This document shows positions 50,773-52,143 of a DNA stretch of 64,000 nucleotides, piece after piece. Both the position numbers and the translations under genes were made by a program. The stretch covers positions 1 through 64,000 of the forward strand of contig NZ_JAAGVY010000002.1 in the NCBI RefSeq assembly GCF_010686655.1. Direction: 5' to 3'. The DNA is from Cryomorpha ignava (lineage in GTDB: Bacteria; Bacteroidota; Bacteroidia; Flavobacteriales_D; Cryomorphaceae). How positions within the stretch are numbered: the first letter of the stretch is position 1; each line of letters starts with the position of its first letter. Under the pieces are notes generated by a model. The model saw only the letters and a program-made list of their open reading frames with translations. It was not told the DNA's origin and made no database searches.

Positions 50773-50857
50773 AATAGGCAATTTTGCAATAGGCAATAGG
50801 CAATTGCAATAGACAATTGCAATAGACAATTAGCAATAGACAATGAGCAATAGTCAA
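50773..50857. repeat. GCAATAG heptamer array upstream of ftcD
   Basis: About eleven degenerate 7-base units (GCAATAG, GCAATTG, ACAATTG, GCAATAG, ACAATGA, GCAATAG). This is the longest of five arrays of the family in this window. Confidence 0.8.
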
Positions 50858-50928: not shown

Positions 50929-51180
50929 TATGGATAAATCCTTGTCGTGCGCCATCGCTCGCGTCCCGCGAGGGATGTCATGTCCGGCGTCCCGCCGGGT
51001 TTTTTGAGCGAGAACTCATGTTACTTCTAAAATCAATAATGGACTGTCAATTTTTTCTGCATAACAGGTTTTTGAATATTGATACTATCAAGATCAAAGA
51101 TTTTAAATTGCTTACCGGAAATTTCTAAAAGGGGCGAGACGCCCAAAGGAAAAGTCCCTCGCGAGACGCGAGCGACGGCG
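50929..51180. mobile_element. MITE-like inverted-repeat element, copy 1
   Basis: About 230 bases bounded by an imperfect terminal inverted repeat. The left arm at 50950-51005 begins CGCCATCGCTCGCGTC. The right arm at 51127-51180 ends GACGCGAGCGACGGCG. The outer 26 bases match at 24 positions and the inner GGCGTCYCGCC segments also pair. The centre is AT-rich and non-coding. A second copy lies at 51794-52045 in the same orientation, so the two flank the small membrane protein gene at 51287. No transposase is present. Confidence 0.65.
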
Positions 51181-51286
51181 ATTAGGAGCTTTGTGGGAAT
51201 TCAAACACAAACCGTATATTTTAGATATGCTCCTATAAGGAATTGGTGGTTAATATGTTACGTCGAGGCAAGAAAGGATGAAGCAC

Positions 51287-51646
51287 CTACTTCTTCTTCA
51301 AGTACTCACCATAATCTTCCAGAAAATCGGCTTCCTTCTCTCCTTTGGTGCTTTTTATTTTTGTGTAAACGCCAATCAGCGCTATAGAAAATCCAATAAA
51401 AACCGACCAGGGATAATCTACATAGTAGTCATATGCCAAATACATTACACCAACAAAAACAATAGCGGCTACAATAGGTACCATAATCAGTTTGAACATG
51501 GAAATGGGTTTTGCCAAATTTCCAATCGCTTTCTCCTTCTGAATCCTTGGAATAGTATAGAAAATCGGCGTAGCAATGCTATTGAAGCAGTAGGCGCCCA
51601 AAATAAAAGCGGCAACCCCAATAGCAATCATTATAACGTATTCCAT
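51287..51646 (-). CDS. Small membrane protein flanked by MITE-like repeats
   Basis: 119 residues from the ATG at 51644-51646 (MEYVIMIAIGVAAF). An in-frame start at 51700 would add 18 residues. Three hydrophobic segments lie at about 1-25, 50-75 and 80-95. It has a positively charged loop and the C-terminal tail EKEADFLEDYGEYLKKK. I do not recognise a family. The flanking MITE-like copies do not encode anything that would explain it. Confidence 0.65.
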   Translation of the reverse strand: MEYVIMIAIGVAAFILGAYCFNSIATPIFYTIPRIQKEKAIGNLAKPISMFKLIMVPIVAAIVFVGVMYLAYDYYVDYPWSVFIGFSIALIGVYTKIKSTKGEKEADFLEDYGEYLKKK

Positions 51647-51793
51647 AAAGCCGAAAGTCTTTAGACCAAGCCGACAACCTTTTGGGAGTACGTAGGGCAT
51701 GGCTGAGATTTAGAATTGCGAAGAAACGAAAATCAAGTAAGTTCTAACTTAACATTTTAAAAAAGCTTTTTGGATCACACATGCGATGTGATG

Positions 51794-52045
51794 TTATGGA
51801 ATAAATCTTTTGTTGTGCGCAATCGCTCGCGTCTCGCGAGGGATGTCTTTTCCGGCGTCTCGCCAGGTTTTCTTGAGCGAGAATTACAAAAAGTTAAGTA
51901 TATCAATAAGGAGCTGTTAACTTCTTAATTTCTAAGCATTTCTACAAATAAAGCTTCTAAGCGACTTCCGAAAGTTTCTAAAACGAGCAAGACACCCGAG
52001 GAAAGATCTAAAAAGGGCGAGACGCCTAAAGAAGCTTGGCAACGG
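51794..52045. mobile_element. MITE-like inverted-repeat element, copy 2
   Basis: The left arm (GCAATCGCTCGCGTCTCG at 51819, then GGCGTCTCGCCAGG) is nearly identical to copy 1, including the preceding TATGGATAAATC-type sequence. The right arm is decayed: AAAAGGGCGAGACGCC is present at about 52012-52026, but the outer CGCGAGCGAC part is lost. A further partial right-arm copy lies at 51975-52008. The rest of 51647-52200 holds a short heptamer repeat and no gene. Confidence 0.6.
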
Positions 52046-52108
52046 CTACAAACAAGTTACTCTCAAGCTGTATCGGAACAGTTCACTTGCTGGTTGCCAA
52101 TTTTCCCG

Positions 52109-52143
52109 TCAATCCGTAATTGCCAATTGCCTATTGCCTATTA
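52109..52143. repeat. TTGCCTA heptamer repeat upstream of surE
   Basis: Short run of units AATTGCC and TATTGCC, the same family as the arrays at 16101, 43233, 50773 and 55624. Confidence 0.65.

Follow-up and report, generated by a model that had tools for sequence, protein, structure and literature searches.

Two repeat copies in the window (the whole 64-kb stretch of DNA analysed here) belong to a dispersed family that is restricted to one lineage, in which arms built of two covarying hairpins pair head to head and lie with a bias in orientation relative to the neighboring genes. We suggest that this family is an orphan REP-like repeat that was probably spread by a Y1 transposase and that may act at the 3' ends of genes, a joint reading to which we give a probability of roughly 0.5. 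Taken by itself, the assignment of the family to the REP-like repeats is highly likely.

Two repeat copies and an orphan gene in one spacer

The two copies lie in a block between the start codons of two genes that we take to be ftcd-like and surE-like (Table 1). As described in an earlier note on this DNA, they are GC-rich repeats with AT-rich cores in direct orientation and with one small gene between them; their left arms form a direct repeat of 62 nt at 89% identity, 868 nt apart, and GGCGTCYCGCC has four exact matches within the window, all at these copies. The same note saw in copy 1 a near-perfect inverted repeat of more than 50 bases, which overstates the pairing: the near-perfect part is 26 nt at 92% identity, and what is left of each arm forms another, self-pairing hairpin. 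The fold of copy 1 is much stronger than those of its shuffles (z = -6.0); for copy 2 the fold is equaled by 36 of 200 shuffles (z = -1.0). The right arm of copy 2 is decayed and goes undetected by R1, a covariance model of one arm built from an alignment of 35 arms. An Rfam scan of the window gave no family at gathering scores, and 6 kb around the copies, searched against plasmids, had no match.

Table 1. Repeat arms, hairpins and gene in the surE/ftcd spacer (positions of the 64-kb window)
Feature	Position	Strand	Basis or remark
Lineage-specific block of 1474 bp from the ftcd-like to the surE-like start codon	50727..52200	.	Spacer comparison with relatives
Copy 1 left arm	50949..51003	+	R1 match, 72.4 bits
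Copy 1 left arm hairpins	A 50954-50976, B 50984-50998	+	Limits taken from sequence
Copy 1 AT-rich core, 122 bp	51004..51125	.	Inter-arm spacer; 72% A+T
Copy 1 right arm, inverted	51126..51181	-	R1 match, 62.3 bits
Orphan 119-aa membrane-like protein gene between copies	51287..51646	-	Match in own genome alone
Copy 2 left arm	51817..51871	+	R1 match, 75.4 bits
Copy 2 right arm, decayed remnant	51983..52046	-	One B core kept at 52016-52026; no R1 match; limits by eye

Among 29 surE loci fetched from other genomes, eight have an ftcd-like gene within 1.5 kb. In seven of these eight relatives the spacer between matched ends measures 119, 120, 127, 128, 130, 140 and 152 bp, and in the eighth 836 bp (three of the lengths derived by coordinate subtraction). 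The 836-bp spacer (genome G005, locus L143) holds a different lineage-specific insert with an ORF, and the site may therefore accept new genes repeatedly. The 119-aa gene has no match at E≤0.001 in any of 39 relatives, and its product matches no Pfam family over its cut-off. Because the block is missing from the relatives and its gene is an orphan, this lineage most likely acquired it; the two copies and the orphan gene fill a spacer for which the relatives have a short one. Among named relatives, those closest to the surE-like protein are MAGs of Flavobacteriales, Cryomorphaceae and Bacteroidia (70-75% identity), and no family arm was found at the matching named locus.

Heptamer words, (CAATAGG)n, stand in tandem at 50784-50851 and, inverted, at 52118-52143, on both sides of the copies and inside the block edges; words of this type recall the heptamer repeats of cyanobacteria. 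Genome-wide, CAATAGGCAATAGGCAAT occurs at 232 places with up to two mismatches versus none for the reversed control, and other short word repeats (CACTCCG, TTGGTTTTTAGTTC) adjoin other elements of the family.

A lineage-restricted family of paired two-hairpin arms

The earlier note would have been undermined if only these two copies existed; this case fails because the genome, a 5.0-Mb draft in 149 contigs, holds 72 arms in 47 clusters at E≤0.01 in the R1 search (76 matches at E≤1; E-values are rough). BLAST of copy 1 against the same genome gave 72 matches at E≤10. A 22-nt arm pattern has 10 matches genome-wide versus none for its reversed control and, together with the R1 arms, this indicates that the repeats are not due to chance. 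The core of hairpin B, GGCGTCYCGCC, occurs at 50 places, 47 of which lie inside R1 arms by coordinates; its reversed pattern occurs at 14 places, a control that is unclean because, in our reading, the reversed string resembles the hairpins of RAYT genes.

At E≤0.001, R1 matches four of 40 genomes including the own genome, the other three being from one sister genus with one or two diverged arms each (the relatives include no second genome of the own genus), and across 299 genomes of the order, under stricter filters, it matches three including the own genome. The exact double-hairpin pattern was found at no place in a wider genome contig collection from which the own genome was possibly excluded. 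Arms of like architecture occur in the relative genus g3 (L082-L085), and inspection by eye of these loci and of three further copies revealed no transposase. Among the matches listed, the open-access literature names no such family in Bacteroidota; the MITEs of Porphyromonas gingivalis named there lie outside our comparison.

From the outside inward, an arm usually consists of GC, one base, hairpin A, about 7 nt, hairpin B and a T-rich stretch. Hairpin A runs through three foot bases, G, stem, loop, stem, G and three foot bases, hairpin B reads CYGGCG-TCY-CGCCRG, and the loops are 3 nt in most arms. In hairpin A, the foot pairs switch together (GTC/GAC, ATC/GAT, CAC/GTG, CAG/CTG, AAG/CTT and others), the tip varies (CTCGCG..CGCGAG, CCAAGC..GCTTGG and longer forms), and a G.G mismatch above the foot is conserved, the first G being invariant and the second present in at least 90% of the 35 arms. 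In the covariation analysis 95.6% of cells pair, and 71 cells carry double changes versus 21.0 in shuffles (0 of 500 as high), a signal that is lost when the pairing partner is slid by 1-3 columns. The number of pairs with any double change, seven, is not above shuffles (95 of 500), and G.T versus A.C counts of 11 and 7 do not distinguish folding at the RNA level from folding of DNA. At four loci (L010, L016, L017, L087) small hairpins of other sequence interrupt hairpin A or B at or close to the tip, and foreign hairpin sequence divides one unit (C11) in two.

Neighboring arms no more than 1.2 kb apart (n=29) are predominantly head to head (+ then -; 23 cases), with four in the order - then +, two ++ and none --. 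The spacers of the head-to-head pairs are 52-122 bp in 21 cases and 543 and 895 bp in the other two. One unit of the family comprises two arms of about 55 nt each, placed head to head on either side of an AT-rich core, and the 21 short units measure about 160-230 bp. When arms are typed by their foot (T1, GTC/ATC; T2, all others, mostly CAC/CAG/AAG/AAC; 69 of the 72 arms covered), 17 of the 21 short units combine unlike types, as reached by 143 of 20000 shuffles. Copy 1 is an exception to this rule, and two other exceptions resemble T1, by eye, in their tips and B hairpins.

The two types also differ in the consensus of the first ~20 nt of the core beside hairpin B (19 T1 and 27 T2 arms), where the sequence is non-random with information above that of all 200 shuffles. 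The 21 full cores are mostly unrelated, with longer matches in C16/C81 (74 nt at 85%), the C37 tandem pair (85 nt at 91%) and C7/C9 (34 nt at 85%); the remaining core-core matches are 16-19 nt, besides a 23-nt inverted match within the C37 pair. We infer that the units share a common ancestry, and that the cores decayed while the hairpins were kept.

At the unit ends, the positions of which are uncertain by a few bases, 18 of the 21 units share at most 4 nt, and three (C18, C37 and C81) share 6-10 nt; C18 and C37 are parts of tandem arrays, and C81 follows, by eye, a piece of another arm at the start of its contig. The mean end similarity over all 21 units, 3.48 versus 2.79 in shuffles (10 of 2000 as high), includes these three, to which we attribute its rise. 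The target duplications for which the earlier note proposed to look are not seen in units outside tandem arrays.

The two long pairs (C11 and C36) were considered as autonomous elements and rejected: by eye no transposase lies inside, and their contents are just foreign hairpin sequence and a nucleotidyltransferase gene. In the latter case (L101, G000:C36:41800-43300) the family arms bracket the gene, which matches DUF6036/AbiEii over cut-off, and an adjoining 62-aa ORF perhaps makes it part of a toxin-antitoxin-like pair.

Position relative to genes and the Y1 transposases

With genes called by our own ORF rule rather than by a gene finder (base cut-off 80 aa), 39 of the 47 clusters overlap no ORF of at least 80 aa; the ORFs overlapped by the other eight are just 81-96 aa in six cases, 169 aa in one and 384 aa from a TTG start in one. 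For 46 of the 47 clusters both neighbors were called, giving 26 same-direction, 17 convergent and three divergent gaps, and at stricter ORF cut-offs the corresponding counts are 26/16/3 (p=0.0044) and 24/16/4 (p=0.012). Given that convergent and divergent gaps are expected to be about equally frequent in a genome, the convergent excess represents a bias. In same-direction gaps the cluster lies nearer the 3' end in 19 of 26 cases (p=0.029; 17 of 24 at 120 aa, p=0.064). Among single-arm clusters with both neighbors, the outer gene is directed toward the arm in 21 of 26 (p=0.0025); the same-direction gaps taken alone give 12 of 16 (p=0.077) or, at another cut-off, 12 of 15 (p=0.035). Arms are therefore mostly hairpins in the sense direction behind a gene. 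The B stem is followed by an excess of T but by no strong tract (0.52, 0.71 and 0.52 at positions 2-4, 0.38-0.71 over positions 2-9; 63 arms), and a scan of the locus for terminator-like sites gave three, all on family arms, versus a shuffle mean of 1.2. Against a 3'-end reading, copy 2 is placed between divergent genes, where no transcript ends. A role of the family as a 3'-end hairpin is tentative, at somewhat below even odds.

The own genome has 11 matches to the Y1 transposase family PF01797, 10 of them over cut-off. Four of these proteins (L047-L050) carry NHLH with YIHDNP or YIHNNP, motifs that fit TnpAREP subclass 2.6/RAYT group 5, a group placed by the excerpts of PMC6006769 in Bacteroidetes and there flanked by atypical structures without GT[AG]G. 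L048-L050 have REP-like hairpins of their own nearby, whereas a scan found none for L047, and hairpins like these flank related Y1 genes in three relatives (L223, L224, L225). The flanking hairpins of these six subclass 2.6-like genes are shared across genera and read GCTCCGC-YGGGCATNCGCCCTGCGGAA or GCTCCGCAGCATTTGCAATGCTGCGG; they may represent the repeat that is cognate to RAYT group 5. A further Y1 transposase gene (L041, G000:C11:31538-31879) lies within an array of GTAG-tagged hairpins, GTAGCCACGGG..CCCGTGG, and is surrounded by repeated 21-22-aa fragments that match its own protein.

The earlier note had proposed to look for a transposase with matching ends, and none was found among the Y1 genes of the genome: R1, run with filters off, detected no credible arm at any of the 11 loci, L047-L050 included (best E 1.2). 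At nine Y1 loci of five relatives it likewise gave none (best E 0.33); seven relatives had been searched for Y1 genes, two of them without a Y1 match, and the subclass 2.6 loci of genera g2 and g3 were covered. Conversely, when five Y1 proteins were compared by tblastn with 43 element loci (167 kb), the controls alone matched.

Combining the anatomy, pairing and gene-orientation data with the survey of Y1 genes, we suggest that (i) the arms would be recognized as single-stranded hairpins by an HUH Y1 (RAYT-like) transposase that acts in trans or has been lost, (ii) this enzyme would have multiplied the unit without target duplications, (iii) copies would persist mostly downstream of genes, with each arm in the sense direction of a transcript entering from its own side, and (iv) the unit would serve as a two-way 3'-end hairpin, i.e. 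as a terminator or as an mRNA 3'-end stabilizer. Spread of the Y1 type stands at about even odds. The presence of Y1 genes in the own genome, some with REP-like hairpins of their own, counts for this explanation. Counting against it are the lack of a credible arm at any Y1 locus examined, two relatives (G001 and G003) that have Y1 genes and lack family arms, the mostly unrelated cores, which would be unusual for a recently amplified unit, and the orientation p-values, which are weaker at other cut-offs (0.012) and in same-direction gaps alone (0.077 or 0.035). The number of pairs with any double change, the G.T versus A.C counts, the raised mean end similarity and the divergent position of copy 2 likewise count against it.

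Alternative explanations and known repeat families

The gene-orientation data would also fit bidirectional intrinsic terminators that are immobile, kept under selection and alike through gene conversion or convergence. Such terminators would account for the favored convergent gaps and the sense direction of single arms, for the T-rich stretch after hairpin B, and for stems kept by compensation while the cores are mostly unrelated. Nevertheless, we consider this unlikely: similar genes are found in the relatives, and yet the family occurs in one genome and, diverged, in three of 39 relatives; the arms share far more sequence than termination needs, including about 20 nt of core; tandem copies exist; the T tract is weak; and copy 2 sits in a divergent gap. 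A MITE moved by a DDE transposase that recognizes the arms as terminal inverted repeats, the usual sense of the term by which the earlier note had named the copies, is improbable. Inverted GC-rich ends, an AT-rich core, dispersed copies and the 6-10 nt shared at the ends of three units are as such an element would have them, but those three units are in tandem arrays and the other 18 share at most 4 nt, cores are mostly unrelated, the two ends are usually of unlike type, the tips are variable, and the folding is within each arm, each hairpin having its own covarying stem.

The earlier note had also supposed that the two copies could mobilize the gene between them. As a mechanism this finds no support because copy 2 is half decayed, and we regard it as very improbable that the copies form a composite element that brought the gene in. 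The block is missing from the spacer in seven of the eight measured relatives, its gene is an orphan and arms bracket the nucleotidyltransferase gene at C36, all of which would suit a composite element; however, copy 2 lacks a sound right arm, the gene bracketed by arms at C3 resembles an ordinary conserved enzyme, CAATAGG-type repeats also lie inside both block edges, one relative has the different 836-bp insert in the same spacer, and no arm was found at the matching named locus. The REP-like alternative that the earlier note had added fits best: the palindromic dimers are dispersed, join their arms head to head, lie mostly outside genes and show no target duplications.

REPINs and BIMEs are dimers of GTAG-tagged REPs with RAYT transposases according to the excerpts of PMC3733652 and PMC6006769, and with these the family shares short palindromes, head-to-head dimers, extragenic location mostly in convergent or same-direction gaps, and a lineage-specific copy number; its 23 head-to-head pairs and 72 arms agree with an inverted, extragenic, multi-copy dimer. 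Unlike REPINs, its arms have two hairpins, the foot is not GT[AG]G (the triplets are GTC, ATC, CAC, CAG, AAG, AAC and others, mostly followed by G) and no arm-flanked RAYT gene was found in the 149-contig draft, where 11 Y1 loci lack a credible arm and 43 element loci lack a Y1 gene. CGTC REPs, as characterized in the excerpted PMC3733652, have an unpaired CGTC (or TGTC/CCTC) tag, a stem of 8-9 bp with AT first pairs and a loop of 4-5 nt. They resemble the family in their head-to-head dimers, in the heterodimers of some CGTC families, in their reported occurrence in Bacteroidetes and in the lack of a dedicated transposase, which for the family refers to the Y1 genes searched. In contrast, the family has no constant CGTC tag, the sequence after hairpin A being variable (GACG, GTGG, CTGT, CTTT) and paired, and it has a 3-nt loop, GC-rich stems, changing foot pairs and two hairpins per arm.

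The REPs of TnpAREP subclass 2.6/RAYT group 5 are similar in occurring in Bacteroidetes, in lacking a GT[AG]G foot and in having a stem mismatch and inverted pairs (PMC6006769, in excerpt). The subclass 2.6 hairpins of this genome differ in being single per arm, in their sequence (GCTCCGC-YGGGCATNCGCCCTGCGG or GCTCCGCAGCATTTGCAATGCTGCGG) and in flanking their gene; no credible family arm is found at L047-L050 or at the g3 and g2 loci. In Pseudomonas putida and P. fluorescens, double inverted repeats are described at tyrosine transposase genes, and these too have two adjoining palindromes per repeat and dispersed copies, hundreds in Pseudomonas; they differ in flanking a transposase gene and in containing a degenerate GTAG unit (excerpts of PMC3733652). 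The target duplications of a DDE MITE are not seen in 18 of the 21 units, which share at most 4 nt, the three tandem-array units sharing 6-10 nt.

The family is a new, lineage-restricted form of REP-like dimeric palindromes. In at least one tested feature each, it departs from GTAG REPs, CGTC REPs, subclass 2.6 REPs and DDE MITEs, and in its workings it most resembles a REPIN that lacks its transposase. It is doubtful that it represents a distinct class of tagless, unlike-ended dimers of two-hairpin arms, in which tips are swapped between modules and the foot covaries, and which would provide a portable two-way end for transcripts and owe their spread to a Y1 enzyme not carried along with them. 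Unlike-armed head-to-head dimers and transposase-less REPs are on record in the excerpts of PMC3733652, where CGTC REPs are reported as REP-like repeats without a visible transposase. A family restricted to one lineage, whose genome also carries Y1 genes with REP-like hairpins of their own, offers a built-in contrast for testing whether these enzymes mobilize non-cognate hairpins, and it also lets one ask whether REP-like units survive by ending transcripts.
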